Part shown: positions 8,468-35,992 of the stretch, piece by piece
How positions within the stretch are numbered: the first letter of the stretch is position 1
Layout of the letters: each line of letters begins with the position of its first letter
NCBI GenBank assembly: GCA_016936235.1
Contig: JAFGPK010000009.1
Span: 1 to 62,151 of the forward strand
DNA length: 62,151 nucleotides
DNA from: Candidatus Fermentibacteraceae bacterium
Lineage (GTDB): Bacteria > Fermentibacterota > Fermentibacteria > Fermentibacterales > JCC-6
Direction: 5' to 3'
The notes under the pieces: model-generated
Told to the model about the DNA's origin: nothing
Database searches by the model: none
The model's input: the letters and a program-made list of their open reading frames with translations, nothing else
Made by a program: the position numbers and the translations under genes

Positions 8468-8864
8468 TTTGTCCTCCCCGCTGTGCTTTGCTGCAAACCG
8501 TAACAGATGGATCGCCGGGAAAACCTGCGGGGCCCTGAGGGCTCCCTCGCATAAGACCTGGACCCATCTGTGTACATACATTCAAGGGGGCACGATACGT
8601 GCAGCGACGGGTGGCGTCAACGGAGAAATACACGGATTGCCGGAACGGTTTGAAATCAAGATCCATGCTCCTGATCGACCGGCGCCAGGGCTGATGCTTC
8701 TTCTCATCCATGGTCCTGAGCGTCCCGAAGGAGCAGCTACTCCCGCGCGTCCCTGGGAAAACCGAATCTATCGTTCAGATTGACAGGCAAATAGCTGGAC
8801 AATAGCTTATCTGTTGTTCTAAACGGGATCAAGTTCTGTATTGTCGAGCAGAGGGGGGATCCGA
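8468..8864. other. 397-base intergenic region between divergent genes
   Basis: No believable gene in either direction; open frames here have unnatural composition. The right end holds a candidate promoter (8780-8808) and the ribosome site for the LVIVD-repeat gene. I found no convincing promoter for the minus-strand symporter pair. Confidence 0.5.
8780..8808 (+). promoter_or_regulatory. weak candidate promoter for the LVIVD-repeat gene
   Basis: A perfect TTGACA (8780-8785) is followed after 17 bases by TAGCTT, which matches the -10 consensus poorly. The start codon lies 57 bases downstream. Confidence 0.35.
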
Positions 8865-19290: not shown

Positions 19291-19328
19291 GGCATGTTTC
19301 CTCATATTCCCTCAACCGGGAGGTGGAT

Positions 19329-20039
19329 TTGGACTTGTCGATGGAAACCGTCAGGGACAACCTGGAACTGGCGCGGGAACTCGTAGGTAAAGCTTTAGGT
19401 TCCTCAGGGGAGGATGGCCGTGATGTAAGGATCATGGCCGTGACCAAGACGCATCCCCCGGAGGTTGTCACAATGGCTCTCCGTGCCGGGGTCAGGCTCA
19501 TAGGCGAGAACCGTGTGAGCGAGGGGGGAAGGAAGATCCGTGCCGTAGGCGCGGAAGCGGCGGAATTTCACCTGATCGGCCCCCTTCACACGCGGGAGGT
19601 TCGCCAGGCGGTCCGGGACTTCCACTGGATCGATTCGCTGGACAGGGTGAAGATAGCAGGAGAGATAGCCAGGAGGACGGTGGACAGGGATCAGGTCCAG
19701 CCTGGTCTTCTCCTCGAGGTGAATACCTCAGGCGAAGGCTCGAAGCTGGGTTTCCAGCCGGATGCCGGGCTGCTGGAAGAGGTGCTGGGACAGATGGCGG
19801 AACTGGGCCTGAAGGTATCCGGGTTTCTCACCATCGGCCCGCTGAACGGGTCCCTCAGTCGAGTCAGGGAAGCTTTCGCTCTTCTTCGGGATCTCCGGGA
19901 CAGGCTCAGGGAGAGATGCTGCGTGCCTCTGGATGAATTGTCCATGGGAATGAGCGACGATTTCGAACTTGCGGTGAAGGAGGGGGCGACCACGGTGAGG
20001 CTGGGCAGGTTCCTGTTCGGAGGGAGAAGGAGGATCTGA
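19329..20039 (+). CDS. yggS: YggS/PROSC family PLP-binding protein
   Basis: About 236 residues with the YggS barrel pattern: RIMAVTKTHPPEVV carries the PLP lysine, then GENRVSEG, FHLIGPLH, LLEVNTSGEGSKLGF and LSMGMSDDFELAVKEG. The family maintains PLP balance rather than catalysing a known reaction. TTG 19329 has GGGAGG five bases upstream (19318-19323); GTG 19323 and ATG 19341 are alternatives. It precedes divIVA, as yggS-type genes do in Gram-positive division clusters. Confidence 0.93.
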   Translation: MDLSMETVRDNLELARELVGKALGSSGEDGRDVRIMAVTKTHPPEVVTMALRAGVRLIGENRVSEGGRKIRAVGAEAAEFHLIGPLHTREVRQAVRDFHWIDSLDRVKIAGEIARRTVDRDQVQPGLLLEVNTSGEGSKLGFQPDAGLLEEVLGQMAELGLKVSGFLTIGPLNGSLSRVREAFALLRDLRDRLRERCCVPLDELSMGMSDDFELAVKEGATTVRLGRFLFGGRRRI

Positions 20040-20044
20040 CGGAA

Positions 20045-20072
20045 TTGACTTGCCGGGATGCGGGACTATTAT
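20045..20072 (+). promoter_or_regulatory. candidate promoter for divIVA
   Basis: TTGACT (20045-20050), 16 bases, TATTAT (20067-20072). It lies in the gap after yggS and about 80 bases before the divIVA start; it could also serve the long secretion operon downstream. Confidence 0.6.
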
Positions 20073-20150
20073 CATTCGAGGAAGAACCCGCGTGTGCGGT
20101 GCTCAAAGGTGCTTTTAACGGGGTTTCACAAACGGGAATGGAGAATCACC

Positions 20151-20684
20151 TTGCGTATAACGCCACTGGACATTAGAAGGCAGAACTTTCGCAAGACCAT
20201 GCGGGGATACGATGTCGACGAGGTGGAGGCATTCCTCGAGATGGTGGCATCGGCCTGGGAGGAACTGGTGGAGAACCTGGAGAAAGCCGAGAAGGAGCTT
20301 ACCGTCCTCCGGGCCAGGGCTTCCGACTTCGACCGCATGGAGGGGGCCGTGAGGGATGTCCTTGTGCAGCAGCAGCAGAGTGCCGCCCAGGCCCGCAAGG
20401 AAGCCGACAGGGAGGCGGAACTCATCATAATGGATGCCGAGGTGAAGGCCTCGAACCTCATATCCGAAGCGCGCGAGAGGGTCCAGGTGCTTACGGAGAC
20501 CATAAGGGAACTTCAGGACAGGCGGCTCTCGGTGCTTTCCCAGATCAGGTCATTCGTCGATTCCCAGGGCAAGATGCTCGACATGGAGGAGGGCCGCATC
20601 AAGTCCGAGATGATACCTGAGGAGGAGAAACTCCCCGGTGAGGAGAATGGCGACTCGCCGATGCTGGAACTCACGGAACTCTGA
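20151..20684 (+). CDS. divIVA: DivIVA-domain protein
   Basis: A 177-residue protein with the DivIVA N-terminal motif: ITPLDIRRQNFRKTMRGYDV, then DEVEAFLEMVA. A long coiled coil follows (residues about 35-150, rich in Glu, Ala, Arg, Gln). The family marks negatively curved membrane and recruits division or polar proteins. TTG 20151 has GGAG eight bases upstream; the frame before it is not protein-like. It ends 22 bases before the PorU-like gene, so it may be cotranscribed with the secretion operon. Confidence 0.88.
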   Translation: MRITPLDIRRQNFRKTMRGYDVDEVEAFLEMVASAWEELVENLEKAEKELTVLRARASDFDRMEGAVRDVLVQQQQSAAQARKEADREAELIIMDAEVKASNLISEARERVQVLTETIRELQDRRLSVLSQIRSFVDSQGKMLDMEEGRIKSEMIPEEEKLPGEENGDSPMLELTEL

Positions 20685-20706: not shown

Positions 20707-23700
20707 ATGAGCCTCCTGCCTCTGCTGCTGGCCCTCTCCGGGATTCCGGCGGGATCGGACGAAGTATTGCCGATGGACCCGGTGGAAGTCGGTCCCGCGC
20801 AGACCGTGATGACCTGGGAATGCCCCCGGCCGGTCCCCCTTGGTTATGCCGGCGAGGATCTGATCGGATACACGGCCCCCGGCTGCTCGTTCTCGGGACC
20901 TGACGGCAGGGTCCTCCTGCCGTGCAGGGATGTCATGCTGGCAGTCCCCCCGGGGGCCGAGATAGCTCTGGAGGTGCTCCCGGAGGGAGTTAGAACCCTC
21001 GGCCGGTCGACAACGGTGGCAAGGGTCGACGTCTCCCCGGAAGGCGCTGATGTGTACAGCGCCGCGCGGGAAGGCACGGTTCCTTCATCATGGGGCGAGA
21101 TACTTGATACAGGGCTGTTCAGGAGGTCCGGATTCGTCCGACTGAGGCTGCACCCTGCGGTGATGGACGCCGGGGGCCTGGTCACGGCCGACAGACTCAG
21201 GGTAAGGGTGAGTTATCCCGACGCCGGCAGACCGGCACCTGCCGGAGGAGTATCGGGCATTATCTTCGATGCGCTCTTTCAGGGAGGTGATCTCGTATGG
21301 GAGACACCAAGGACAAGGCAGGGGCCCGGCCCGTTCTGGGGTCTGCCGTGGTACGCAATTGAAGTCGATACCGCAGGTATCTATAGAGTAGACTGCTCCG
21401 ATGTCCCCCAGGCCCAGGGAACGCCATCGTCCAGCCTGGCGCTTTTCTGCGGAAGAGGAAGGGACATGGGTGATACGCCCTGGGAGGTAGTCTACTCACC
21501 GCTGCCGGTGCCCATCATGGTCGAGGACGGCGGCGACGGGTCCTTCGATCAGGGGGACAGCTTCTGCTTCTTCGGTCGGGGACTCGCATGGTGGGAAACC
21601 CTGGGCCAGATCATGCCGGACCATTACGATCATATGTTCGACGACCGCAACACTTACTGGCTTTCATGGGGCGGGGAGGACGGGAAGAGGATGGAAGTGC
21701 AGGACGGTGTCCTCACAGGAGCTCCCGCCATGCCGGACACTTTCCTCTGCCGGAACCATTACGAAGAGAACATCGAACGGTGCAGGGGAACGGTGAGTTT
21801 CCTGGACGACTGGGCCTGGATGCGTTCCGAGGGCAGCTCGGACAGCTGGCACTATTTTGATTTCGATGCTCCGGGAGCCACGGGCAGCGGTCAGCTCAGG
21901 ATGAGAATAGCGTCAACAAATAGCATACAGCACCGTATCCGTATCTTCGTCAACTCGCAGCTGATGTGTGATACCACATGGAACGGCACCGGTTTCTTCC
22001 AGCCCGTCATCGATGTGAGAGGGTTCCAGCCGGGAGGCAACAGTCTGGCGCTGCAGATAGTCCGGGAGTTCGGCAGCGACATCATGTATCTTGACTGGTT
22101 CGAGGTATTCCCGTGGTCCGGAAGCACCGCCGCCGGCCTGTCGCATGTACCGCTGGAATGGTGGCACCTCTACGACAGGCAGGAATTCACCTGGGAAGCC
22201 GGGCTGGAGAATTCCCTCGTCTTCCTCGTGGGAGGGGACACGCTTGCCCACAGGATAATTCCCGACGATCCTCTCCGCTTCGAGTTCCAGGTCCCGGGGT
22301 CGTGGCTGTCGAGGGAGCTGTGGATAGTCGATGAGGATGCCGTGCCTTCGCCGGCGGAGGTCAGGTATGAATCGCCCGGCAGGATCATGGGCTCCGCGGG
22401 CGGGGCTCAGTGCGTCTATGTGGCCGCTGACCAGTTCCTTGACGATATCGATCCCCTTGCCGGGAGGGAGGGAGCCCTCTCTTTCTCTGCCACCGAAGTC
22501 TACCAGGAGTTCAACGGCGGGGTCCGGGACCCCGGGGCGATCAGGGCCATGGTCTCCTACATTGTGGATAACTGGGACCCGATACCCTCCGACCTCGTGC
22601 TCGTGGGGGGAGGCACCTGGGACCCCAGGAACTTTGTATCGTCGAAGATATCCCACATCGACATCCAGTACATCGGAGTAACGAACCTCGTCAGTGATGA
22701 CGAGTTCGCCATCACAGAGGGCTGCAGCGTTCCCCAGCTGGCGGTTTCGAGGATAGGCACTGGAAATGCCGCGGATCTCCAGATGGTGGTGGAGCGTTCC
22801 TGTGAGTACCGCGAAGGGGGAAACAGGGGAACCTGGCAGACCATCGTGATAGGAGCGGCGGATGACGAGCTTTCACCCCTGCATTCAAGCGACGAGAGGT
22901 ATCATACGCAGGAAGTGGAAAGGCTTCTCACCGATTCACTGCCCGGCGTTCTCAGACCCGAGAAGCTCTACATGATCTTCTACGACTGGAACAGCAGCGG
23001 TAAGAAGCCGGAAGCCAGATCCGACTTCATAGACCTGTGGAGCCGGGGGGCTCTTGTGGCGTTCTATCAGGGTCATGGCTCCTTCGACCAGCTGGCCGAC
23101 GAGGGTCTCCTCTACCTTGAGGACGTTGGGCTCCTTGCCTGCGGTCCCCGCCTTCCTGCGGCCTTCTTCGGCTCCTGTGACGTTGGCCGGTTCCAGAACC
23201 CTTCCACCGAATGCATCGGGCAGCAGGTGACCACCTCTCCCGCAGGCGGCGCCATAATTGGATTAGGAGCTTCGGACAAGACCACGGGTCCCCTGAACGA
23301 GATCCTCATTGGGCGGATATTCAGCCACCTCTTCACCAGGCGGGAGTCCTCGATAGGGATGTGCGTGCTCATGGGCAAGATAGACGCGGGTTACAGCACC
23401 AACAACGCCCAGTACATCCTCTTCGGTGACGGCAGCGTTCCCCTGGCCTACCCATGGGACACTTTCGAGATCGACGGCGACTCCCTCTTCGCAGGAGAGC
23501 GGAACTCGGTCACTGGCACCGCTCCGGACCAGGGGCTTTTAATGGTGGAAGCCTGGGAATCCTGCACTCCTGACACATATTACACCTTCAGGGAGCACCT
23601 TCCCATCGGCTATCTCACCATTCCCGGCAGGTTCTTCTCCGGGACCGCGGTGGCGGGACCGGGTTTCTCAGCCGAGATGTTCGTCCCCATTGACTCCGAT

Positions 23701-24447
23701 ACCGGCCGATTGGCAAGGACCCAGCTTACCTTCATCAGCGGACAGGGACTGGCGGCTTCTTCCACATACCCCGCCAGGCTTCTCAGAGGCAATCCTTCGG
23801 CGGATGCCCAGGGTCCCGAGATCGAGCTCTGGATCGAGGGGTACAGGAACTCCGCCAGTCCTGAAGTATCAGGCGAGATAGTCGTGCGCGCCCAGCTCTC
23901 GGACAGTTCCGGGATAAACCTCCTCGGGAACGTGGGACTTCAGCTGGCCCTCTATATCGACGGGACGCCGCAGGATGTGTCGGATTACTTCGAATACAAC
24001 AGGGGCTCCAGCACCGAGGGAAACCTGAGCTGCGGCATCGGGGTCCTCGAACCCGGAGGACATACTCTGGGCCTCAGGGCCGCGGACGGCCTGCTGAACA
24101 TCTCCGAAGCGGAGATGGATTTCTCCGTGACCCAGGACAACAGTTTCGGGATCTTCGATGTATTCCCGTACCCGAATCCCTGTTCTGACGGCACGTCCAT
24201 AAACTGGACCCAGACCTCCCCTGGGACGGTGGAGATTTCCTTCTATACCGTGGCCGGAAGACGGGTGGCCCGTTTCGGGAACATCGAGGGTGGTGCAGGA
24301 TATAACCAGTACTGGTGGGACTGCCGGGATGCTGACGGAGATGAAGTCGCCAGCGGTGCTTATATTTTCCTGGTGTCCGCGGCTTCCTTGTCGGAATCCG
24401 GCGATGCATCAGAGGTCACGGGGATCATGGCCGTCATGAGAGAATAG
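20707..24447 (+). CDS. porU: PorU-like C25 sortase/peptidase
   Basis: A 1246-residue protein with a short signal peptide (LLPLLLALSGIPAG). A beta-rich N-terminal half precedes a gingipain-like C25 domain: VLVGGGTWDPRN, then FYQGHGSFDQ with His near residue 790 and FFGSCDVGRF with Cys near residue 824, and ILFGDGSVPLAYP closing the domain. It ends in a FlgD-like segment (FPYPNPCSDGTSINW, RDADGDEVASGAYIF). This order and size match PorU, which in type IX secretion cleaves the C-terminal signal of cargo and attaches it to the surface. The PorV-like gene next door supports this. Homology to true PorU is inferred from architecture. Confidence 0.82.
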   Translation: MSLLPLLLALSGIPAGSDEVLPMDPVEVGPAQTVMTWECPRPVPLGYAGEDLIGYTAPGCSFSGPDGRVLLPCRDVMLAVPPGAEIALEVLPEGVRTLGRSTTVARVDVSPEGADVYSAAREGTVPSSWGEILDTGLFRRSGFVRLRLHPAVMDAGGLVTADRLRVRVSYPDAGRPAPAGGVSGIIFDALFQGGDLVWETPRTRQGPGPFWGLPWYAIEVDTAGIYRVDCSDVPQAQGTPSSSLALFCGRGRDMGDTPWEVVYSPLPVPIMVEDGGDGSFDQGDSFCFFGRGLAWWETLGQIMPDHYDHMFDDRNTYWLSWGGEDGKRMEVQDGVLTGAPAMPDTFLCRNHYEENIERCRGTVSFLDDWAWMRSEGSSDSWHYFDFDAPGATGSGQLRMRIASTNSIQHRIRIFVNSQLMCDTTWNGTGFFQPVIDVRGFQPGGNSLALQIVREFGSDIMYLDWFEVFPWSGSTAAGLSHVPLEWWHLYDRQEFTWEAGLENSLVFLVGGDTLAHRIIPDDPLRFEFQVPGSWLSRELWIVDEDAVPSPAEVRYESPGRIMGSAGGAQCVYVAADQFLDDIDPLAGREGALSFSATEVYQEFNGGVRDPGAIRAMVSYIVDNWDPIPSDLVLVGGGTWDPRNFVSSKISHIDIQYIGVTNLVSDDEFAITEGCSVPQLAVSRIGTGNAADLQMVVERSCEYREGGNRGTWQTIVIGAADDELSPLHSSDERYHTQEVERLLTDSLPGVLRPEKLYMIFYDWNSSGKKPEARSDFIDLWSRGALVAFYQGHGSFDQLADEGLLYLEDVGLLACGPRLPAAFFGSCDVGRFQNPSTECIGQQVTTSPAGGAIIGLGASDKTTGPLNEILIGRIFSHLFTRRESSIGMCVLMGKIDAGYSTNNAQYILFGDGSVPLAYPWDTFEIDGDSLFAGERNSVTGTAPDQGLLMVEAWESCTPDTYYTFREHLPIGYLTIPGRFFSGTAVAGPGFSAEMFVPIDSDTGRLARTQLTFISGQGLAASSTYPARLLRGNPSADAQGPEIELWIEGYRNSASPEVSGEIVVRAQLSDSSGINLLGNVGLQLALYIDGTPQDVSDYFEYNRGSSTEGNLSCGIGVLEPGGHTLGLRAADGLLNISEAEMDFSVTQDNSFGIFDVFPYPNPCSDGTSINWTQTSPGTVEISFYTVAGRRVARFGNIEGGAGYNQYWWDCRDADGDEVASGAYIFLVSAASLSESGDASEVTGIMAVMRE

Positions 24448-24560
24448 TGGAAGCAGAACATGAACCGCCATGGAATTATATGGCACGCCATGCGTCGGCA
24501 ATGGCGCCGGAACCTGACCCGCGAATGCAGTGTTCAGTATTCTGATGAAATAACATAATG

Positions 24561-24577
24561 CCGAAGCAGGACTTCGG
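24561..24577 (+). other. hairpin before the PorV-like gene
   Basis: CCGAAG-CAGGA-CTTCGG forms a perfect 6-bp stem with a 5-base loop in the 148-base gap between the PorU- and PorV-like genes. No T-run follows, so it is not a clear terminator; it could tune expression or stabilise the 5' end of a processed transcript. Confidence 0.4.
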
Positions 24578-24595
24578 TGCTTTGCAGGAGGAACC

Positions 24596-25600
24596 ATGAT
24601 AAAAGGACTTTTTATCTGTACCGTTGTTCTGGCTCTGGCGGGTGTTTCCTACGGGTCCACCGCCAGCGTGATATGGATGACCATCACTCCCGGCGCCAGG
24701 CCCAATGGCATGGGAGAGGCCTTCACGGCCCTGGCGAATGATGCCACGGCTTCCTACTGGAATCCCGCCGGCCTTGCCTTTGCCGACACTTCCGCCCAGG
24801 AGATAACGCTTCAGCACAGCAACTGGCTGCCGCAGCTGGCCAATGACCTCTACTACGAATTCCTCGGCTATTCCAACTACATTGACGGCTGGGGAGGCGT
24901 GGGGGGCAACATAACGTTCATGTCCATGGGAGAGCAGCTGGAGACAACCGAGTCCGGGCAGGAACTCGGCGAGTTCTACTCCTACGGAATCGCCGCCACC
25001 GGCTCCTTCGGCACCGAGGTCGCACAGGGCGTTTCGGTGGGACTTGGCCTCAAGTTCATCTACGACCACCTCTACTACCAGGATTCGGGCAAGGGCACTT
25101 CCTTCGGGGCGGACCTCGGAGTGCTCTACCGGCTTCCGATGCAGCAGCTGGGCATCCAGAACATAGGGCAGATCAACATCGGAGCCTGTCTTTCCAACCT
25201 GGGACCCAACATGAGCTACGGCGGGAATACCGAGAACAACCCTCTTCCCCGGACCCTCAGGGCGGGCCTTGCCTACATCCCCTTCGACAGCCACCTCTCC
25301 AGGCTCCGCTGCACCGCCGACTACAGCAAGATCCTGACTAATGTGGAGGACGGCCTGGGGGAGGAGTTCAACGAGAACAAGTGGGGCGCGGGGGCGGAGT
25401 TCTGGTACTACGACCTTCTGGCTCTGAGGGCAGGGTACATCCACGACACCGAGGGCATCTCGACGATACAGGGGCCGACGTTCGGCGCCGGTCTGCAGTA
25501 CTCCGGATTCCAGCTGGACATGGCCTTCATACCTGTGGAGGAGAACCTCCAGGGCTCCGGCAAGTACAACTCCAAGTACTCCCTTTCGGTTAGATTCTAG
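24596..25600 (+). CDS. porV: PorV/PorQ-family outer-membrane barrel protein
   Basis: A 334-residue protein with signal peptide IKGLFICTVVLALAGVSYGS. The mature N-terminus PGARPNGMGEAFTALANDA followed by ASYWNPAGLA is the hallmark of the PorV/PorQ/UPF0164 group of FadL-like barrels. It ends in SLSVRF, an outer-membrane-type terminal strand. PorV shuttles type IX cargo from the translocon to PorU. AGGAGG lies upstream of ATG 24596. Confidence 0.87.
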   Translation: MIKGLFICTVVLALAGVSYGSTASVIWMTITPGARPNGMGEAFTALANDATASYWNPAGLAFADTSAQEITLQHSNWLPQLANDLYYEFLGYSNYIDGWGGVGGNITFMSMGEQLETTESGQELGEFYSYGIAATGSFGTEVAQGVSVGLGLKFIYDHLYYQDSGKGTSFGADLGVLYRLPMQQLGIQNIGQINIGACLSNLGPNMSYGGNTENNPLPRTLRAGLAYIPFDSHLSRLRCTADYSKILTNVEDGLGEEFNENKWGAGAEFWYYDLLALRAGYIHDTEGISTIQGPTFGAGLQYSGFQLDMAFIPVEENLQGSGKYNSKYSLSVRF

Positions 25601-25606
25601 CCGCCG

Positions 25607-28438
25607 ATGGCCAGGATCCTTCCTTCAATACTGCTGGTCCTGACGGGAGCCGCCGCTGCGGCTCCCCCCCTGGTGACCGGGATTATGCCCCCTCTGCACG
25701 AAAGGCCTTCCGATGGGAGGGCAATAACCGGACCTGCCTCGCGCGACGGTACCGACGAGACGATGAACGTGTGCATGATAAGGGTCCAGTTCCTCGAGGA
25801 CTTCACGGAACTCACCAGCGGCAACGGCAGGATGGACCTGGATGCGGACCCTCCCCACGACCGGGTCTACTTCCGGACGATAGCCGACGATGTCTCCTCC
25901 TATTATGAGGATGTCAGCGGCGGAGAACTGGTCCTGGAAATAGACATCTACCCGTCGGAGCTTGACGGCTGCTATACCGCGGACCACCAGATGATGCATT
26001 ACGGAGACGACGCGTATTATGTTGAAGGCTCATGCCTCCTGCTTCACGACGCCGTGCTCCTCGCGGACCAGGACATCGATTTCAGTCAGTACGACGCTGT
26101 GATAGTCATTCACGCAGGATCGGGCCAGGAAGCGGACATCTACCGCAACAGCCCTGGTGACATAGGCTCTATTTTCCTCACCCTCTCCGATCTGACGTAC
26201 TACCTCCCGGGAGCGGGTCAGGGCTACAGAGGCATTCCCACGAATGACGGGGTATACGTCGCCGAGGGCATGATCGTGCCGGAACAGGAATCCCAGGACG
26301 GTTTCGGGCTGGGCGTCCTGGGCACGATAGTCCACGAGTTCGGCCACCAGCTGGGGCTTCCAGACCTTTACGACACCTATACCGGCAATGTCGGAGTGGG
26401 AGGCTGGGACCTCATGGGCTACGGCCAGTGGATGATGAGCGGCTACTGGCCTTCAGCTCCGGGCGCCTGGTGCAGGATCTTCCTGGGATGGGACTCTCCG
26501 AAGGAGGTGGATAGCGGAACATTCACCCTTGCTCCGGACGATTCCATTCTCATGGTCCCCCTCAACGGGACCGAGTACCTCCTTATAGAGAACAGGCAGC
26601 GGGACCCGGACGGAGACGGGATGTGCGGGGTGGACGAGCACGACTTCGGCCTGGCGGGTTCCGGGGTGCTCATATGGCACATCGATCAGACACGGCTGGG
26701 CGACTACGTGGGAGCCAACATCGTTAACGTGGATCCTGACCACAAGGGCGTGGACCTGGAGGAGGCGGACGGGATACAGGACTTCGACTATTCACTGCCG
26801 GACATCTACGGATACGAGGGAAGCGAGTTCGACCCCTGGTTCCCCTCGGGCTACGCATGGGAGTTCTCTCCCTCCTCCGAACCCTCCAGCGACGCCAGCT
26901 GGGGCGGCAGGACCTTCGTGACCGTGGAAGTACTGGACGATCCGGGGAACCAGATGGACGTGAAGGTCACAAGGTCCACCGTATGTCAGGGATGGCCGGT
27001 CCATGCCGGCCCCCTGGGCTACGGACCCGTGCTCTGGGAAGATGCCGACGGCATGGACGACAGGCTTGTGGTGACCACTTCCACCGGGATAGCACTCGCT
27101 TACGGCATCGATGGGGAAGGACCCCAGTCAATGGGTCTCGGGATCACGGCTCCGCCAGTGGCGGGGAGTCTCTCCGGAGGCGATCAGTTGCTGCTCGTCT
27201 GCGGGAACGACGGCCGGGTACATCTTCGGGACCTGGAGTGGAACGAGCCCGGCGGATGGCCGGTCACGCTCCCCGGAGGAGTCATGGGGGTCCAGGCGCT
27301 GATCAGTTCCGGACTGGGCATCGTGGCTGTGGCTGATAACGATCAGAGAATACACATGTTCGACGAATCAGGCGAGAAGGTCAACGGATGGCCCGTGCAG
27401 GTTCAGGCGCCCGTGACCGGACTGGCCGTCTACCCTGATGGAGAGCGGCCGGGCCTTGCGGCAACCACGTCTGACGGAAGGGTGCACCTCTGGAGACTGG
27501 ACGGACGGAAGGCGGAGGGTTGGCCGGCGGCCCCGGGTGAAGAGAACATCAGTATCCCGATGGCCGCCGACATAGACAGGGATGGAGACATTGATCTGGT
27601 AGCGGCAAGCGGGGAATGCATATATGCATTCGATGGATCCGGGGAGCTGCTGCCGGGGTTTCCGGCGATGCTTCCCTCGCCTCCGCTCTCCTCTCCCTGC
27701 CTTGCGGATCCCGACGACGACGGGCGGCTGGAGACCGTTATCCTCACATGGGACGGTATTGCGGCTGTGGGAGCTTCCGGAGCCACTCTGGAGGACTGGC
27801 CCGCCCATCTGGAGCAGGACAGTCTGGTGGCTTCCTACAGCAGCGGCCGCAGCGGCGTGGGAGGTTCCGGCTTCGCCATGGTCACCATGGATGACGGAAG
27901 GGTCTGCCTGTTCGACGGCACGGGCGGACAGAGCGGAATCTTCCCGGTATCCGTCGGGGACAGGCCTGTGGGAAGACCGGTGATCTGGGACCCTCAGGGT
28001 ACCGGCGAATGGAGGGCAGCGGCCGCGGGGAGCAACGGAACCGTATACTGCTGGAACACGGGTTTCCAGCCCCAGGGATGGTTCACGGGCCGGGACCAGT
28101 CAGGGAGCAACTGCTGGTGGAGCCAGGACCTTCCCCCGCTTCAAACCTCGGGCTCGGTTCTCGAACAGGGCTCTTTCTACGTCTATCCGAACCCGGTCCG
28201 GACAGGAAGCGGCGTCATAAGGTTCCGACCCGGCCATGACTGCACCTGGGAGATCAGGGTTTTCAACATGGGAGGCGACCTCGTGACCATGATGAGCGGC
28301 AGCGCCCCCGGCGGCTCGGCCTGGGAGGAGACCTGGGATACGGAGGATCTTGCGCCCGGGGTATACTTCGTCAGCCTCGGCATATCCTCCCCCGAAGGTT
28401 CGACAGAGGCCATATTCCACGCGGCGGTGATAAACTGA
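25607..28438 (+). CDS. secreted M6-family (immune inhibitor A-like) metalloprotease with sorting domain
   Basis: A 943-residue exported protein; signal peptide LPSILLVLTGAAAAAP. The catalytic zinc motif HEFGH is at residues 243-247 in IVHEFGHQLGLPDLYD, followed by GVGGWDLMGYGQWM, typical of M6 peptidases. Residues about 465-840 form repeated VHLW/GWPV-type units, likely a propeller. The C-terminus (FYVYPNPVRTGSGVIRF, LAPGVYFVSL) is a Por/FlgD-like sorting domain. Starts six bases after the PorV-like stop and shares TGATG with the next gene. Inferred cargo of its neighbours. Confidence 0.87.
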   Translation: MARILPSILLVLTGAAAAAPPLVTGIMPPLHERPSDGRAITGPASRDGTDETMNVCMIRVQFLEDFTELTSGNGRMDLDADPPHDRVYFRTIADDVSSYYEDVSGGELVLEIDIYPSELDGCYTADHQMMHYGDDAYYVEGSCLLLHDAVLLADQDIDFSQYDAVIVIHAGSGQEADIYRNSPGDIGSIFLTLSDLTYYLPGAGQGYRGIPTNDGVYVAEGMIVPEQESQDGFGLGVLGTIVHEFGHQLGLPDLYDTYTGNVGVGGWDLMGYGQWMMSGYWPSAPGAWCRIFLGWDSPKEVDSGTFTLAPDDSILMVPLNGTEYLLIENRQRDPDGDGMCGVDEHDFGLAGSGVLIWHIDQTRLGDYVGANIVNVDPDHKGVDLEEADGIQDFDYSLPDIYGYEGSEFDPWFPSGYAWEFSPSSEPSSDASWGGRTFVTVEVLDDPGNQMDVKVTRSTVCQGWPVHAGPLGYGPVLWEDADGMDDRLVVTTSTGIALAYGIDGEGPQSMGLGITAPPVAGSLSGGDQLLLVCGNDGRVHLRDLEWNEPGGWPVTLPGGVMGVQALISSGLGIVAVADNDQRIHMFDESGEKVNGWPVQVQAPVTGLAVYPDGERPGLAATTSDGRVHLWRLDGRKAEGWPAAPGEENISIPMAADIDRDGDIDLVAASGECIYAFDGSGELLPGFPAMLPSPPLSSPCLADPDDDGRLETVILTWDGIAAVGASGATLEDWPAHLEQDSLVASYSSGRSGVGGSGFAMVTMDDGRVCLFDGTGGQSGIFPVSVGDRPVGRPVIWDPQGTGEWRAAAAGSNGTVYCWNTGFQPQGWFTGRDQSGSNCWWSQDLPPLQTSGSVLEQGSFYVYPNPVRTGSGVIRFRPGHDCTWEIRVFNMGGDLVTMMSGSAPGGSAWEETWDTEDLAPGVYFVSLGISSPEGSTEAIFHAAVIN

Positions 28439-29097
28439 TGAGAAGAACATGTGCCCTTATGCTGCTGATAGTCCTGCTGACGGCGGGGACCGCCCAGGCG
28501 GTCAGCTCCCGGGGAGGGGCCATGCTCAGATCGGCCCTGCTGCCGGGGTGGGGTCAGATGCACCTCGGCCACGGGACCAGGGGGCTTGTTTTCATGAGCC
28601 TGGACCTGGTCACATGGACCGGCGTGGGCCTCTCGTACCTGGAGGGCACCTTCAAACGCGACGACTACACCTGGCTGGCCATGTCCGAGGCGGGCATCTC
28701 GGTGGACGGCCTGTCCGGTGATTTCCTCGACGACCTGTCGGATTTCGACTCCAGCATGGAGTACAACGACTACATTCACAGGCTGGCCCGGTACTACTAT
28801 CCGGATGATCCGGAAGCCCAGCGCGATTACTACGAATCCCACGCGAAATACGGAGACGAAAGCTGGGACTGGTCCTCCGACGCGGCCAGGGCCCAGTTCG
28901 CCAGCCGCCTCCAGGACAGCAGGGAGTGGTTCAGGAGGAGCCTGTACATTGCCGCTTTCGCCCTGGTGAACAGGGCGGTCAGCGTCATCGACGCGTCCCT
29001 TCTGGACGAGACTGCCCCGGGCATCTACACGTCTCTTTCCTTCCCTGAAAGGCGCGACTTCTCGTCCTTCAGGTTCTCCATCGGAGCCAGGTTCTGA
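28438..29097 (+). CDS. DUF5683-like membrane protein
   Basis: A 219-residue protein. After a signal-like N-terminus, ALLPGWGQMHLGHGTRGLVF and the following hydrophobic stretch match the DUF5683 pattern of short, probably membrane-associated proteins. A mid region rich in Asp and Tyr and a C-terminal SFRFSIGARF, outer-membrane-like, follow. ATG overlaps the protease stop (TGATG), and its own stop overlaps the next start the same way. Function unknown; its place inside the secretion operon suggests an envelope role. Confidence 0.72.
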   Translation: MRRTCALMLLIVLLTAGTAQAVSSRGGAMLRSALLPGWGQMHLGHGTRGLVFMSLDLVTWTGVGLSYLEGTFKRDDYTWLAMSEAGISVDGLSGDFLDDLSDFDSSMEYNDYIHRLARYYYPDDPEAQRDYYESHAKYGDESWDWSSDAARAQFASRLQDSREWFRRSLYIAAFALVNRAVSVIDASLLDETAPGIYTSLSFPERRDFSSFRFSIGARF

Positions 29098-30758
29098 TGG
29101 CCGCGCTGATGCTGGCCATAATGCTGGGCGCCTCTCCCGCGGTCTACTGGACCGACGGGACGCTCCGGGTGCCGGGCCTGATGGAGATAGACAGGCGACA
29201 CGATCCGGCGTACACGCCCACGGGTCCCCTGGCGGGGACCAGGGGCCACGAGCCGGGGGACACGATCAACTTCTGGTCAATAGACTACAGCGAGGCTATT
29301 CCCAGGTTCTACCTCACGCCGGCAACCTGCAGGTACGTAGGGTACCACACGTATATTTTCGTGGAGGATTCCCAGTGGGACGTCCACTACGACCAGGACG
29401 CCGTCAGCGCCTTCGCGGCGGCGCTGGAGACAGAAACCCCTTCCGGACCCGGGGGAATAGTCGAGAAGGACATAGATGTATTCGGACAGCCGCCCGACGC
29501 CATCGATGACGATCCCAAGGTCTATTTCCTCGTGCTTGACATTCGGGACGGATTCGATCCCCAGCAGGGGGGAGCCTACATAGCCGGCTTCTTCAGTCCC
29601 TACAACCAGTTCACCGAGACCGAGGCGTACCTCTACTACGGGGGACATTCCAACGAGGTGGAGATGCTGTACATAGACTGCTTCCCGGCTGACCAGTACG
29701 ATGCCGCCTACACAGCGTCCCACGAGTTCGTCCACCTCATCCAGTGGGGTATCGGACCCTTCAGCTCGGAGGAGCTGTGGGTGATAGAGAACCAGGCCCA
29801 GTCCGGCACCTTCGTCTGCGGTTTCCCGGCTTTCCAGGTGGAGACCTTCCTGGAGGTGGGGGGAATAACGCCCATAAAATGGACGAACCTCACCGACGAC
29901 ATTGAGTACGTGGCCGGCTACGGCGCAGGTTATCTCTTCTTCTCATACCTGTGGGAGAATTACGGCGGGGACGATTTCCTTCACAGGTCCCTCAGGGTCT
30001 CCGACAGAGGTATCTCGGGGATCAGCCAGGCCATTCGCGACGTTACAGGACAGACCCCGGACATGGACCAGGTGCTGGCCGACTGGATGCTGGCCTGCTG
30101 GATAGACGATCCCGATTTCGGAAACGGCATTTACGGCTGGGATTCCTTCAGGATATCCGACTACGATACGGTGTCACCCGGCAACAGGCCCGGCCTCGAC
30201 TACAGCTTCGTGATAGAATCGGATCCCTTTCAGCACATAGGCGGCTCGATGTCCTCCTACCAGGGAAGCTACTGCACGGTGGATGAAGGATTGTCCGGCA
30301 GTTTCAGGGCTGACGGCACCGGCCTCGGGGACATGCGGGCATACCTGTTCGACCATGATGAGGGACTGCTGCGGACATTGGACACAGGATCAGCCAACGA
30401 TGTGGCCGTACCCCTTCCCGAGACCGCCGACATCCTTCTGATGTGCAGCTCCTTCAGCGGTCTGGACCTTGACGTTTCCGCGGGTTCAGTGGTGTCCGCC
30501 CCAGGGCAGTTCGCCCTCTACCCCCAGCCATGCCCCGGGACTCTGTACATCCAGATCTGGTCCTCGGGAGGAGATGCGGAACTGTCCGTATTCACCCTGG
30601 ACGGCGGGTATGTGGAGACAGTGGAGTTCCCCTCCGTCGGAAGCGGGGAGGCCACGCTTGCCTATCCGGGGGCATCCGAACTCTCCTCGGGCGCCTACTT
30701 CTTCAGATTCAGCCAGGGAGGCAGAGTGGAAACCGGTTCGTTCGCAGTTGTCCGGTAA
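29097..30758 (+). CDS. secreted HExxH metalloprotease (M30-like) with sorting domain
   Basis: A 553-residue exported protein with signal peptide ALMLAIMLGASPA. The zinc motif HEFVH is at residues 209-213 (ASHEFVHLIQW), with a nearby ELWVIENQAQS whose Glu is a possible third ligand, as in hyicolysin-type M30 peptidases. The C-terminus (LYPQPCPGTLYIQIW, LSSGAYFFRF) is a sorting domain. Start overlaps the previous stop (TGATG). Family call is by motif only. Confidence 0.75.
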   Translation: MAALMLAIMLGASPAVYWTDGTLRVPGLMEIDRRHDPAYTPTGPLAGTRGHEPGDTINFWSIDYSEAIPRFYLTPATCRYVGYHTYIFVEDSQWDVHYDQDAVSAFAAALETETPSGPGGIVEKDIDVFGQPPDAIDDDPKVYFLVLDIRDGFDPQQGGAYIAGFFSPYNQFTETEAYLYYGGHSNEVEMLYIDCFPADQYDAAYTASHEFVHLIQWGIGPFSSEELWVIENQAQSGTFVCGFPAFQVETFLEVGGITPIKWTNLTDDIEYVAGYGAGYLFFSYLWENYGGDDFLHRSLRVSDRGISGISQAIRDVTGQTPDMDQVLADWMLACWIDDPDFGNGIYGWDSFRISDYDTVSPGNRPGLDYSFVIESDPFQHIGGSMSSYQGSYCTVDEGLSGSFRADGTGLGDMRAYLFDHDEGLLRTLDTGSANDVAVPLPETADILLMCSSFSGLDLDVSAGSVVSAPGQFALYPQPCPGTLYIQIWSSGGDAELSVFTLDGGYVETVEFPSVGSGEATLAYPGASELSSGAYFFRFSQGGRVETGSFAVVR

Positions 30759-31515
30759 ACCTGTTCCGCTTACACGGCTTTTCCTCTCCCTGTTCCTGGC
30801 CGCGCTCCAGCCGACGCTGTCTTCCGCCGCCTTTCAGGATTTCCGTTACATAGAGCTGCCAGGGGGGGACCTTGTGGAGGCCGAGATCAACAGTGCCGGA
30901 GATGTCTTTCTCCTTATGCGCGGCCTGCCCCATCTCGTGATAGCATGGGCCGACGGTTCCACCACCGAATATGACCTGGGCGAGATAGTGCTGCCCGGGG
31001 GAATGTGCGTCGACCAGACCTGGGGATGGTACGCCACCGGGGAAGTGACGGACATGGTCTACCGCTACGACAGGAGCGGGGTTCTCATGGACTCCTGGGA
31101 AGCCGGCAGCCTGCCCGGTGACATATCAATATCGGGGCTCTCCGTAATCTACGTCTCCAGGGCCGAGGGAAGTATCAGGTCCCTCAGGAACCCTGATACG
31201 GAGGTGGCCAGGCTGCAGGGCTCGGGCGGGGGCCGGCTGGTCCCCTTCGGTGACAGGTTCGTCTACTCGGCGCCGGATGAGTCAATGATCCTGGGGGAGT
31301 TCCATGCCCGCCAGCCCCTGCCGGCATCCGGCGCGTGGTCGGCGATGGGGGAGACCCTGGTGGTGCTTCTTGATTCCTGTCTGTGCACCAGGGATGGTAC
31401 GGAGCTCTTCAGACTTCCAGCGGGACAGGAGTTCTCCAGGATCTCCTTCTCCAGCGGGGGGGGGTACTGCCTTCTCTGGTCTCCGGGGGAAGAGAGGGCC
31501 ATGGTGCTCAGGTGA
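30748..31515 (+). CDS. small exported protein in the secretion operon
   Basis: A 255-residue protein of unknown family. TTG 30748 gives a fine signal peptide (LTRLFLSLFLAALQPTLSSA). The body contains propeller-like turns (GGMCVDQTWGWYATG, DGTELFRLPAG) and no cysteine-rich or membrane segments. The start overlaps the previous stop by 11 bases and its stop overlaps the next start as GTGA, so it is translationally coupled on both sides. It lacks a sorting domain. A structural or accessory role in the envelope is inferred only from position. Confidence 0.65.
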   Translation: MSGKPVPLTRLFLSLFLAALQPTLSSAAFQDFRYIELPGGDLVEAEINSAGDVFLLMRGLPHLVIAWADGSTTEYDLGEIVLPGGMCVDQTWGWYATGEVTDMVYRYDRSGVLMDSWEAGSLPGDISISGLSVIYVSRAEGSIRSLRNPDTEVARLQGSGGGRLVPFGDRFVYSAPDESMILGEFHARQPLPASGAWSAMGETLVVLLDSCLCTRDGTELFRLPAGQEFSRISFSSGGGYCLLWSPGEERAMVLR

Positions 31516-34500
31516 GCATGATCGCCCTTGTCCTGCTGGCCGTTTCATCGATAACACTGGAATACCAGAGTGACGGCTCATCGTTCCTGGAGATCCCCGA
31601 CTCTCTCTGGATCGCCCCGGGAACCCTGACCGCCGTTGTCGGAGGGGACACCCTGGACGCGGTCCCCGGCACATCCGGCTCCAGGACGGGCGTTCTGCTG
31701 TCCCCCCCTCCCCCCGCCGGCAGCACGGTCACACTGAGCTTCGAGACCCTGGACCTCAGCGTCCCCTCGTCCACCACCCTCGATGTGGGTTTCGCCGACA
31801 GGCAGGAGATCGAACAGCTGCCCACGTACCTGGCCAATCCCTTCCTCGAGCGGGGCCTGTACATCTCCGGCTCCAAGAGGATAGGCTTCTCAGTGGGCGA
31901 AGGCGGAGGTCTCGACCAGGGCACCAGGATATCCGTGGAGGGCACGGCAGCACCCGGAATAACCGTTTCAGGCAGCGTAACGGACCGTAATCTCGCCTCG
32001 GGTCCCTATTCGTCGGAACTGGTCTCCCAGCTGGACAGGATATTCTTCATTGTGGACGGAGGCAGCTGGAACGCCAGACTGGGCGACATGGAATGGCGAA
32101 GCGGGGACGGCGAGACCGGCCCTCTTTCGTGGAGAAGAGAGGTCAGCGGCATTGACGCAAGCGGCGCACTCACGGACACATACTCCGCCGGGGCCGGTTA
32201 CGGGACCTCCAGCGATACGAGGCAGAGGACCGTATTCTACACCCGGGAGGGCATTCAGGGTCCATACCAGGTGACCTCCGGCTGGGAGATCGTGCCGGGG
32301 AGCGAGAAAGTATGGCTGGACGGCCAACTGCTTCAGCGGGGCGCCACGGAGGACTACGAGATGGAGTACACCGCCGGGCTCATCACCTTCACGGCCACAA
32401 GGCTGATCAGGAGCGACCAGAGAGCGGAGATCACGTTCTTCCAGAGAGGCGACGGGTTCCGGAAGGATTTCGTCACGGGCTCCGGAAGCTATTCGGCCGG
32501 TCCCCTGCTGATCGACGTCAAAGGTTTCTACAGTGAGGACGACAGGGGCTCTCCCCTGGGATTCGTACTTACGGAGGAGGCGGAGGAGGTGCTGAGCCGG
32601 GCGGGGGAGGACCCTTCGGAGGCCTGGATCGACGGCGCCGAGTACGTTGGGGAAGGCCATGGAGACTATTCTCTGGATTCCCTGGACCACTATGTGTACC
32701 GGGGTCCCGAGCAGGGGGACTGGAGCGTGGTGTTCGGACGCCCCCCGGACGGCGGGGGAGATTACCTCTACGACAGTTCCACAGGCGGATACCTGTGGGT
32801 GGGGGAAGGGAACGGCACCCATCTGCCCAGGCAGTACGTGCAGATACCCGTGGGTTACAGGACGGGGGGGATGTCCCTCGCCTACGGAGGGGACCTGCTT
32901 GACCTGGGAGTGGAAGCAGCATTCTCAGGAAGGACCGGCAACATGTTCAATCCCGACGCCACCACAAGAGAGGGTACGTACATCTCCGGGTCGGGAAGGC
33001 TGGAATTCTGGAAGGACGGTCCAGGACTCGGAATCGGAGGCAGACTGGTCTCAAGCGGGTACAATCCTCCCGGTCAGCTGGAGGCGGACAGCTCCCTCTA
33101 CGCCTGGTCCCTTCCCCCTGACCATTCCGGCAACGACGACATAGTGACCGTGAACCTCGGGGGACGGGGACTGATGTTCGAAGGCGCCGGGCGGTTCATG
33201 GAACAGGGCGGCGTGCTTGAAAGGTACAGGGTCCGCGCCACTCCCGTGGCGGCCGGGGTCGGCCTGACCTCCGGAGCCGGATACCTGAGGCGGAACGGCA
33301 CTGACAGCCTCGCCCGCGGCGAGACTTCGTTCATGGACCTTTCCGGCACTCCCGTATCGGGCGACCTCAAGCCCTTCGCCGGTTTCAGTCTCTCCAGGGA
33401 GTCCTGGCAGGACAGCCTCTCCGGTTCCGTCAGGACCGGTTTCACTGGTCTCTCCTTTTCACGCGGGGCATCGGAAGCGCTGCTCAGGCTTGAGCTCAGG
33501 AAGGACACCAGGGTCGGAGGTCTCTCGCCGGGCCCTCTTACCCTATGGCGGGCGCGGCTGGAAGGCTCGGGTCCCCTCGGCGAGCTCAGGTACAGGGGCA
33601 GCATCGAGCACTCCTCCACTTCCTACGAGCTGGGCGGGGAACTGCAGGCGGATGCCATAAGGATGACCATCACAGGCACACTTGATGACATCTGGTCTGA
33701 AACGGTGTACAGCGGTTCGGGAACGGTCAGTCGGTCCCTTGACGTGGTCTACGTATTCGTGGGGGAGGGCGAGGGCGGTTTCAGCTACGACCCGGAAAGC
33801 GGTCAGTACTACCCCGACCCTGACGGTGACTACATCGTGAGCTATCAGCCCGGGAGCCAGGGGCAGACGGTCACCTCGGCCACACTCGAGACCACCGTTT
33901 CTGTCGTTGAGGAATCTTCCGGTTTGAGCGCCGTGATAAGGCTCGCCTCCAGCAACGGTGACGACAGGGCCAAGGCCCTGCTGCTCTACGGAGCATTCGA
34001 TGTCGACCAGGAGGGCGGATACAGTCTGGACCTCTCACCCTGGTTCAGATGGAGGGAGGGTCTCCTGACCAGGCTGAGCTTCACCGGGAAATACAGCGAC
34101 CAGAGGATCTCCTACAGCGTGGCGGGTCTCAGGGAGAAGAGAGGATGGTCCCTGAGAGCGGCGCCCGAGCTGACACCCTTCGAGGAACTGGTCATAGACA
34201 TCTCGGGAAGAATATGGAGGGAGGAGGATGAACTCTACTCCCCCAGGGATACAAGAGGTATCAGGCTGGAAGTGGATCCGACGGTGGAGGCTGCCCCCGG
34301 TTTCATGCCGGGTCTGCTCACCGCCTGGGAATCACGCCGGGAGGTGATCTCCGACCTGTCCGGCTACATGCTGGAAGCCGGTCCACACCTCTCCTGGGCC
34401 GGAGGCGGCTGGACCGCCACCGCAAGGGTCACCGCCGGCTACATCCCTGGAGAAGGGGAGCTTCCTGCGTGGTTCTTCGACGGTAACGACACGGGAGTCA

Positions 34501-34634
34501 CATGGAGGGCCAGTGCCAGGGTGGGGAAGAGCCTGGCATCGGGTCTTGACATAAGCCTCTTCTACTGGGGTAGAAGACCGGCCGGCAGCAGCTGGAACCA
34601 CAGGGCGGGCCTTGAGGGTACGGTGAACTTCTGA
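31512..34634 (+). CDS. large outer-membrane beta-barrel protein (SprA-like features)
   Basis: A 1040-residue exported protein. GTG 31512 overlaps the previous stop; ATG 31518 is an alternative. A short signal (MIALVLLAVSS) precedes a region with ISGSKRIGFSVGEGGG, VSGSVTDRNLA and WNARLGDMEW, then SEKVWLDGQLLQRGATEDYE and AGLITFTATRLI. These repeat-like segments recall the plug and repeat regions of SprA/Sov-type and related large barrels. Alternating hydrophobic strands run to the end, which closes with GLEGTVNF (terminal Phe). It is less than half the size of SprA. Function as a pore or translocon is inference from neighbours. Confidence 0.6.
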   Translation: MSMIALVLLAVSSITLEYQSDGSSFLEIPDSLWIAPGTLTAVVGGDTLDAVPGTSGSRTGVLLSPPPPAGSTVTLSFETLDLSVPSSTTLDVGFADRQEIEQLPTYLANPFLERGLYISGSKRIGFSVGEGGGLDQGTRISVEGTAAPGITVSGSVTDRNLASGPYSSELVSQLDRIFFIVDGGSWNARLGDMEWRSGDGETGPLSWRREVSGIDASGALTDTYSAGAGYGTSSDTRQRTVFYTREGIQGPYQVTSGWEIVPGSEKVWLDGQLLQRGATEDYEMEYTAGLITFTATRLIRSDQRAEITFFQRGDGFRKDFVTGSGSYSAGPLLIDVKGFYSEDDRGSPLGFVLTEEAEEVLSRAGEDPSEAWIDGAEYVGEGHGDYSLDSLDHYVYRGPEQGDWSVVFGRPPDGGGDYLYDSSTGGYLWVGEGNGTHLPRQYVQIPVGYRTGGMSLAYGGDLLDLGVEAAFSGRTGNMFNPDATTREGTYISGSGRLEFWKDGPGLGIGGRLVSSGYNPPGQLEADSSLYAWSLPPDHSGNDDIVTVNLGGRGLMFEGAGRFMEQGGVLERYRVRATPVAAGVGLTSGAGYLRRNGTDSLARGETSFMDLSGTPVSGDLKPFAGFSLSRESWQDSLSGSVRTGFTGLSFSRGASEALLRLELRKDTRVGGLSPGPLTLWRARLEGSGPLGELRYRGSIEHSSTSYELGGELQADAIRMTITGTLDDIWSETVYSGSGTVSRSLDVVYVFVGEGEGGFSYDPESGQYYPDPDGDYIVSYQPGSQGQTVTSATLETTVSVVEESSGLSAVIRLASSNGDDRAKALLLYGAFDVDQEGGYSLDLSPWFRWREGLLTRLSFTGKYSDQRISYSVAGLREKRGWSLRAAPELTPFEELVIDISGRIWREEDELYSPRDTRGIRLEVDPTVEAAPGFMPGLLTAWESRREVISDLSGYMLEAGPHLSWAGGGWTATARVTAGYIPGEGELPAWFFDGNDTGVTWRASARVGKSLASGLDISLFYWGRRPAGSSWNHRAGLEGTVNF

Positions 34635-35992
34635 TGATGATCCTTCTTCTTTGCGTCCTCACGGTTCCCGGTTCTGCAGCGGACCCAGTGCAGGTGGTAA
34701 TCGAAGGCAGCCCGCCCCTCCCTCTCCTGTACCAGCTCGACATCGATTCCGTTACAGTGTCCGACTCATCCATAGCCCTGCTGCAGGAACGGATGCTCCA
34801 GTGGTATCTGGAGGAGGGGTACCCCTTTGCTTCCGCGGGATACTATTTCACCTCTGCGGATACCCTTGCGGTCAACACCGTGCCCGGGAGGCACGCCCTC
34901 CTGGAGGAAGTGAGGATCGAGGGCATGCCAGGGACCAGAGCGTCGGTCTTCATAAGGCTTCTTCCCATGAAACCCGGGGAGAGCTACAGCAGGGAAGCGG
35001 TTGAGGAGTGGGTATCGAGGCTCCAGCGCATACGCTTCGTAGGGTCTGTGGGGCCGACACAGCTCCTTCTCGGCAGGGGTGGTAATCTGGTGCTGGTCCA
35101 GCAGCTTCAGAAGGGAAGCGCCGGGTACTTCTCAGCTTCCATGGACTGGCAGGGGGACTACCTGGAGGGGATGGGTGAGATTCTCTTCCTGAACCTGGCC
35201 GGGACCGCCAGGGAACTGGAGATCTCCGGGCAGACCACAGAGTGGGGCGGGCTCAACGCTTATCTCAGGTACAGGGAACCCTGGCTCTTCGGGATCCCCC
35301 TTTCCCTTCAGCTGGAGCTGTCCCAGGACACGCCGGAAAGCGCCTGGGTCAACAGGGAGGGGAGCATAACGGGCATTTGGAGCCTCAGCCGGACGGAGCT
35401 CCGGGCCGGCGCGGGCTTGTGGAGGGGTTTCCCTCCCGACGGCGAAAGGCAGGAGTACGATTACGGCCTGGCCGGGATCGGATACCTTCGGGGCAGGCGG
35501 GTCCCCCAGGGTTTCAGCGGCATAGAGCTTGACCTGGAGGGCCGGAGCGGCAGCAGAACGGGTCAGGATTCCTCCGGGATACTGACCATGGCCGAACTGA
35601 CATTCAGGGCCGATGTCTACAGCGGCCTGCTGGGTTTCGGAGGAAAGGTCCTGGCCGGAGGAGTAATGCAGGGAGACTGGTTCGAAGGTCTGTTGAAGAA
35701 GCTGGGTGGCCAGACCACCCTCAGGGGTTACCCGGAGAATGCTTTCAGGGGTGTCCGATATGCGGTGGCCCGGCCGGAGATCTCTCTCGGAGAGACCGAG
35801 ACCAGGATTTACCTTTTCGCGGACCTGGCCGTGATCAGGACCGACACCGACGAACTCAGGTACCCGGTGGGCTCGGGATTGGGCATAAGGGGCTACAGCG
35901 GAATATTCCATGCCGACGCCGCGGCTGGATTCCCCCTCAGCGAAGGGCTGGGGAGCGCAAGGCTCTACCTCAGGCTCACGGCTTCTCTTTAG
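34634..35992 (+). CDS. Omp85/TamA-like outer-membrane protein
   Basis: A 452-residue protein; signal peptide MILLLCVLTVPGSA. Residues about 35-150 resemble one or two POTRA domains (VRIEGMPGTRASVFIRLLP, KPGESYSREAVEEWVSRLQ). The barrel carries TTLRGYPENAFRG (LRGY at 363-366), the conserved loop-6 motif of Omp85 proteins that insert or export barrels. It is shorter than BamA. Its start overlaps the stop of the large barrel (TGATGATG), so it may help assemble that partner. Confidence 0.78.
   Translation: MMILLLCVLTVPGSAADPVQVVIEGSPPLPLLYQLDIDSVTVSDSSIALLQERMLQWYLEEGYPFASAGYYFTSADTLAVNTVPGRHALLEEVRIEGMPGTRASVFIRLLPMKPGESYSREAVEEWVSRLQRIRFVGSVGPTQLLLGRGGNLVLVQQLQKGSAGYFSASMDWQGDYLEGMGEILFLNLAGTARELEISGQTTEWGGLNAYLRYREPWLFGIPLSLQLELSQDTPESAWVNREGSITGIWSLSRTELRAGAGLWRGFPPDGERQEYDYGLAGIGYLRGRRVPQGFSGIELDLEGRSGSRTGQDSSGILTMAELTFRADVYSGLLGFGGKVLAGGVMQGDWFEGLLKKLGGQTTLRGYPENAFRGVRYAVARPEISLGETETRIYLFADLAVIRTDTDELRYPVGSGLGIRGYSGIFHADAAAGFPLSEGLGSARLYLRLTASL

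Follow-up and report, generated by a model that had tools for sequence, protein, structure and literature searches.

An eight-gene operon of Fermentibacterota that may join the attachment half of a divergent type IX secretion system to a module made up of a propeller, an Omp85 protein and a very large barrel

The DNA analysed here (hereafter the window), a stretch of 62,151 nucleotides from a Candidatus Fermentibacteraceae bacterium, is contig C50 of a draft genome (G000) of 2.68 Mb that is 94% complete. Between positions 20707 and 35992 it carries eight open reading frames (ORFs), all on the plus strand, which begin with a PorU-type sortase gene and end with a gene for a short Omp85 protein (Table 1). 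From PorV through Omp85 (24596-35992) neighbouring genes are spaced by 6, -1, -1, -11, -4 and -1 bp, so that all of them touch or overlap, and 148 bp lie between PorU and PorV. The run of eight consecutive same-strand genes, mostly touching or overlapping, that a first-pass annotation of the sequence had described is thus borne out by ORF coordinates and gaps.

The gene order, whose conservation that annotation had asked to be tested in relatives, was compared in 32 loci that carry the barrel gene, all of them from Fermentibacterota (Aegiribacteria, Sabulitectum, Fermentibacter and Hyd24-12). The complete eight-gene order was recovered by tblastn in 13 of these loci. Four others hold seven genes in order with the propeller missed by tblastn, its ORF being in place in the three inspected (3/3), and 15 end at a sequence edge, the genes detected there standing in the same order. 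The propeller also escaped tblastn in L085, as well as in L089, where the upstream stretch is short, and one further locus, L065, agrees with the operon order. Among the Fermentibacterota loci, identity of the barrel drops as low as 38%. Together, these findings establish that the eight-gene operon is real and that its order has been kept across Fermentibacterota to an extent that exceeds chance. A scan for promoters and terminators returned counts near those of shuffled sequences and was uninformative, and no match to phage families was found for five proteins.

Table 1. Genes of the operon, with window positions and the matches on which each assignment is based
Feature	Position	Strand	Basis
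PorU-type sortase, peptidase C25 fold, GHG and Cys motifs	20707..24447	+	NF033707 E 7.5e-93, 312 bits; PF01364 E 7e-50
PorV/PorQ-family outer-membrane barrel	24596..25600	+	NF033709 231 bits over cut-off 90; PF19572 E 9.5e-18
M6-type metalloprotease, propeller-like repeats, borderline C-terminal sorting domain, HExxH	25607..28438	+	NF052323, TIGR03296
DUF5683-like small membrane protein	28438..29097	+	PF18935 weakly matched by 12/13 relatives, best E 3e-4
Second HExxH protein, weak C-terminal sorting-type domain	29097..30758	+	NF045524 E 0.0065; TIGR04183
NHL-type beta-propeller, probably six-bladed, 255 residues, no sorting domain	30748..31515	+	Conserved frame/start; AlphaFold2; Foldseek
Probable very large outer-membrane beta-barrel, 1,040 residues, not SprA	31512..34634	+	Residues 258-341 SprA-like; hhalign, TIGR04189, model
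Short Omp85 (BamA-type) protein, LRGY motif, 452 residues	34634..35992	+	BamA profile E 5.9e-19; PF07244 23.7 over 21.3

The score of the first product against NF033707 lies below the 420-bit equivalog cut-off of that model and above the 171 bits reached with Pfam C25, and its GHG and Cys motifs are kept in 12/12 and 12/13 aligned segments, respectively, in agreement with the PorU-like assignment made earlier. The second product, previously called PorV-like, passes the NF033709 cut-off, stays below that of the PorV equivalog (168 bits, cut-off 250) and matches FadL at no better than E 0.011; by analogy, it may act as a cargo carrier. In this regard, neither of the two outcomes that the first-pass annotation had named as speaking against its proposal, namely better scores to unrelated C25 and FadL families or a gene order not conserved in relatives, was found.

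The M6 protease matches NF052323 at E 6e-92 and 309 bits, below the 600-bit cut-off, and exceeds that of TIGR03296 (117.5 over 110.8). Its HExxH motif is kept in 18/20 aligned segments and that of the second protease in 26/26, as expected from the earlier description of two HExxH proteases with sorting domains; the domains themselves fared less well, that of the M6 protease being borderline (20.6 and 25.3 bits in two scans, cut-off 23) and that of the second protein (TIGR04183) remaining under the 23-bit cut-off in both scans (14.6 and 18.8 bits). Similarly, the DUF5683-like label holds in so far as nearly all Fermentibacterota members match the family, but the match is weak there and strong for a gene of the outgroup genome G036 (2e-20).

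The sixth gene starts best at TTG 30748, a conserved start that overlaps the previous gene, and the N-terminus of its product resembles a signal peptide by eye. A family scan with Pfam and NCBIfam left this protein unmatched. Its AlphaFold2 model (predicted local distance difference test, pLDDT, 89.3; predicted template modelling score, pTM, 0.83) found designed six-bladed propellers and NHL domains as best Foldseek matches, and the model indicates an NHL-type propeller, probably six-bladed. The profile built for it also matches other NHL-like genes, one of them near tandem PorU genes, so that single weak matches mean little.

The last product shows one POTRA domain over the Pfam cut-off and a second by eye, POTRA being matched by 12/19 members, and an RGY/RGF motif in 26/26 aligned segments; the window's protein scores below the cut-off of Pfam Omp85 itself. 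Canonical BamA has five POTRA domains, which this protein lacks, its alignment to BamA beginning near BamA residue 300. The first-pass annotation had offered the barrel and the Omp85 gene as a reduced translocon "or its assembly factor", and the latter part finds partial support: the last gene is of the BamA type, its counterpart usually adjoins the barrel in another phylum as well, and an assembly-factor role is plausible.

The seventh gene encodes a protein for which NCBIfam and Pfam hold no family and whose relatives measure about 1,030-1,200 residues (the L102 barrel, with 21 stops in range, was left out of the alignments). Against TIGR04189, the SprA model, it reaches 19.5 bits where 200 are required, over positions 600-651 only; 14/16 family members match the SprA model and one matches a phage tail family. 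Profile comparison by hhalign aligned 82 columns of the barrel and SprA profiles (E 1e-7, probability 94), pairing barrel residues 258-341 with 542-633 of the SprA of a relative, which by extrapolation corresponds to about 693-780 of Flavobacterium johnsoniae SprA, and other regions did not align. By sequence, no relative was found among solved structures, where a phage protein alone gave a weak match (E 0.19), and plasmids yielded no match to the barrel. Foldseek, run with an AlphaFold2 model of low confidence, returned large barrels at low template modelling (TM) score, with Deinococcus SlpA first. These findings indicate that the product has one domain in common with SprA and is probably a very large barrel. 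LptD was considered as an identity for it and discarded, since none of 16 members matches Pfam LptD at E<=0.1 and the LptD matches from Foldseek are those of generic barrels.

The type IX secretion system (T9SS) to which the first genes point is represented elsewhere in the genome. A SprA gene that runs into the end of contig C2 scores 315 bits in frame (cut-off 200), and a profile of 11 SprA sequences, including this one, aligns with F. johnsoniae SprA (6h3i) over residues 72-2379 at E 7e-172. Two more PorU genes form a tandem pair (G000:C116:27508-34918, L147; 392 and 353 bits with NF033707, under 420), and the three PorU genes of the genome are 31-36% identical to each other, with GHG and Cys motifs in all. 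Type-A sorting domains give 90 matches at E<=1, 75 of them over the cut-off; of 14 control genomes, 13 gave matches at E<=1 and 1 over the cut-off. Given SprA, two further PorU genes and the 75 sorting domains that exceed the cut-off, an SprA-type T9SS is present in this genome, and the type IX context that the first-pass annotation had proposed is supported, as is its suggestion that the full SprA absent from the operon may lie elsewhere. Its other suggestion, that the barrel is a reduced translocon taking the place of SprA, is not supported: a genuine SprA is encoded at another locus, and only one domain of about 80 residues is homologous. No match to GldL or GldM was obtained in 40 relatives (0/40 each), nor to GldM in 39 genomes of the phylum of G036 (0/39), in searches where no positive control genome matched either.

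Several observations accompany these genes. In six relatives, SprA has a length of about 1,870 residues, vs 2,403 in F. johnsoniae. In the neighbourhood of SprA, the families scanned in L054 and for one L053 gene are LptF/LptG, SerC, LigA and PilB-PilB-PilT-PilC, and the possibility that this neighbourhood is a T9SS cluster was dismissed, no T9SS gene being present in scanned locus L054 (plus one L053 gene). By homology, and where the contig allows, LptF/LptG-type genes and PilB-PilB-PilT-PilC type IV pilus genes stand beside SprA in L051-L056 and L061. The tandem PorU pair also occurs in G001:C1 (L148) and in several relatives among the matches listed. Three more type-A sorting-domain proteins, likely cargo, are encoded in the window itself (1586-4081, 8841-11048 and 60734-61354), one of them with 11 LVIVD-repeat stretches.

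A survey covered 30 Fermentibacterota drafts together with ten outgroup genomes. Among the drafts, the barrel was found in 26, PorU in 30 and SprA in 29 (one as a fragment), and three outgroups, G032, G036 and G038, each carry barrel, SprA and PorU; the numbers available for co-occurrence are small. A counterpart of the operon outside Fermentibacterota is found in G038, where PorU, PorV, M6, DUF5683, propeller, barrel and Omp85 genes follow one another in the same order, seven of the eight genes; the second HExxH gene was not seen there and two DUF5683-like ORFs are present. Its parts detectable by tblastn are 25-34% identical, and the Omp85 and propeller genes are recognised by profile only, the propeller at E 8e-4 and probability 24 with the Fermentibacterota profile vs E 5e-9 and probability 96 with that of the G036 phylum. 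The PorV gene of G038 (L066 766-3447) is an 893-residue frame in which a long insert, weakly matching LysM and regulator-propeller families, separates the PorV halves. In G032 an NHL-like gene precedes the barrel, and downstream of the barrel, close to the end of the contig, no Omp85 gene was observed.

The phylum of G036 offers a different arrangement. All 39 genomes analysed from it match the barrel profile (some by fragments only) and 36 hold SprA, 35 over the cut-off. In G036 itself the PorU-PorV-M6 trio and the propeller-barrel-Omp85 trio occupy separate loci. Sixteen barrel loci of the phylum were fetched: an Omp85 gene directly follows the barrel in 12, and directly before it lies a match to the propeller profile in 10 and an ORF of similar size in five, one case being doubtful. 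Cross-phylum alignment of the propellers extends over 146 columns (E 4e-9) and that of the Omp85 proteins over 390 (E 3e-38). As judged from gene neighbourhoods, since the trio recurs apart from PorU in this phylum, propeller, barrel and Omp85 are a module of their own, which Fermentibacterota and G038 combine with the sortase trio.

The reading that we favour, to which we assign a probability of a little under one half (about 0.47), is that the operon unites a new outer-membrane partner module with the attachment half of a divergent T9SS. The operon would consist of two separable modules, the first (PorU, PorV and M6 protease) acting as the surface attachment half of a T9SS whose translocon, SprA, is encoded elsewhere, and the second formed by the propeller, the very large barrel and the short BamA-type Omp85 protein. 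We infer that the Omp85 protein would insert the barrel, probably with the help of the propeller in a BamB-like manner, and that the barrel may cooperate with PorV and PorU at the outer membrane, either as a docking or anchoring platform or as a second exit channel for processed cargo. Sequence comparison establishes what the second module consists of, that it recurs in other lineages and that it is fused to the first module in Fermentibacterota and G038. A bolder proposal, in which this second module is an undescribed outer-membrane machine of the wider Fibrobacterota-Chlorobiota-Bacteroidota (FCB) group, that is, another very large channel that brings its own built-in assembly pair and is an obligate partner of a T9SS form without PorLM motor, seems doubtful to us.

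Several observations weigh against the favoured reading. The second module does not adjoin PorU in the loci viewed in the G036 phylum, where four of the 16 fetched loci show no Omp85 gene beside the barrel and where a recurring neighbour, glycogen-synthase-like by its motif, permits a general envelope role. Four of the 30 Fermentibacterota drafts (66-92% complete) lack the barrel, also by profile, and one genome of 1.9 Mb and 98% completeness (G005, L078) has kept operon and PorU genes with SprA not found. Two outgroups have SprA without the barrel: G030 (59% complete), together with PorU, and G035 (82% complete), without it. The AlphaFold2 model of the barrel, built from 25 sequences, is weak (pLDDT 67.6, pTM 0.49), and SprA is absent from the best 50 Foldseek matches to it. 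Finally, G033, which has neither SprA nor PorU, encodes an 853-residue protein (L069 8107-10665) that aligns with about 140 barrel columns around the SprA-like domain at E 6e-7, the barrel profile itself giving no match in that genome; this relative argues against an obligatory link to the T9SS and makes the favoured reading and the bolder proposal a little less probable and a general envelope role a little more so.

According to the latter explanation, which we regard as possible, the second module would serve the FCB-type envelope in general, as a unit for outer-membrane biogenesis or transport, for example in glycolipid or polysaccharide export or in the assembly of very large barrels, and its adjacency to PorU and PorV in two lineages would reflect shared surface biology rather than any direct part in secretion. 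The presence of the barrel in all 39 genomes analysed from the G036 phylum, as expected of a core function, and its position away from PorU in the loci viewed there are in line with this notion, and so are the partial relative in G033 and the Foldseek matches to unrelated large barrels, LptD among them. It accounts less well for the seven-gene order with PorU and PorV that is kept in a distant lineage, for the silence of the barrel profile in the five outgroup genomes without SprA and PorU (in G031, G034, G037 and G039 barrel, SprA and PorU were all not found) and for the lack of Pfam LptD matches among the 16 members. Alternatively, the barrel could be a second, SprA-related translocon with its own cargo set, working in parallel to SprA through the PorU and PorV of the operon. 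The domain in common, matched by the SprA model in most members, the adjoining PorU and PorV genes and the G005 genome, where the operon is found without SprA, point in this direction, as do 38 strands of at least 8 residues after residue 110 in the low-confidence model, vs 36 for SprA in the available part of a published account (PMC10994853). Set against homology limited to 82 columns, the failure of SprA to appear among the best 50 fold matches and the retention of SprA by nearly all barrel carriers, a second translocon appears improbable. Omp85 proteins and large barrels are widespread, and T9SS genes often lie dispersed, so an ordinary T9SS attachment operon might simply chance to stand before a BamA paralogue and an unrelated porin-like barrel; the overlapping genes, the conservation of their order throughout the phylum and in G038, and the recurrence of the propeller-barrel-Omp85 trio away from PorU already disfavour this explanation, which we consider very improbable.

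Comparison with known systems helps to place the operon. Like the T9SS of Bacteroidota (Porphyromonas gingivalis, F. johnsoniae), G000 has SprA, PorU, a PorV-family protein and type-A sorting domains; it differs in having three PorU genes and no GldL/GldM match (with no positive control matched), and the SprA of relatives is shorter. To our knowledge, propeller, very large barrel and Omp85 protein figure in no list of T9SS components. The barrel has one domain and a similar predicted strand number in common with SprA/Sov, but it is about half as long, scores far below the cut-off and coexists with a real SprA. BamB is the propeller partner of BamA in the beta-barrel assembly machinery, to which the operon is alike in its Omp85 protein with POTRA and RGY motif and in its propeller partner gene; in contrast, there are one or two POTRA domains in Fermentibacterota, the six-bladed propeller has no lipobox by eye, and the gene lies beside one client-like barrel. 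PorU, PorV, PorQ and PorZ make up an attachment complex, which the operon recalls by its PorU and PorV-family genes with a propeller protein nearby, yet this propeller lacks a sorting domain and the PorZ model matches far below cut-off, on the tails of PorU and the M6 protease. Deinococcus SlpA, of the S-layer deinoxanthin-binding complex, is likewise a large outer-membrane barrel and the best Foldseek match, but at 10% identity, TM 0.27 and a root-mean-square deviation of 19.8 the match is not evidence of homology.

As far as its available text goes, a 2016 survey reports the T9SS in no clade besides Bacteroidota (PMC4793230), and the accessible part of a 2025 paper describes SprA as FCB-specific and implies its occurrence in further FCB phyla (PMC12611786); because of the latter, the occurrence of SprA outside Bacteroidota is in itself no novelty. 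The present analysis adds that a Fermentibacterota genome in which neither GldL nor GldM was detected has SprA, PorU and 75 sorting domains, and that SprA occurs through another phylum with GldM likewise undetected. Among the titles and abstract beginnings listed, with subscription papers mostly not covered, no report on a T9SS in Fermentibacterota or Fermentibacter or on the present module was found, and PorU2/PorV2 was not mentioned in those 8 of 309 matching papers that were listed. If the motor is truly absent, the power source of SprA becomes testable by comparison of lineages. Propeller, barrel and Omp85 protein would be a conserved, unnamed candidate component, from which it is predicted that the barrel depends on the neighbouring Omp85 protein and contacts PorV or PorU.

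Other genes of the window complete the picture. Directly upstream of the operon, positions 19323-20684 hold a DivIVA gene and a YggS-like gene, the latter with an alanine racemase N-terminal domain; this stretch ends 22 bp before PorU, and a DivIVA gene is likewise found upstream in L062, L063 and L064. On the minus strand, 40690-42543 encodes a protein with a Castor/Pollux-type ion-channel domain and 45855-49220 a 1121-residue protein that combines an adenylate/guanylate cyclase domain with NB-ARC and TPR repeats.

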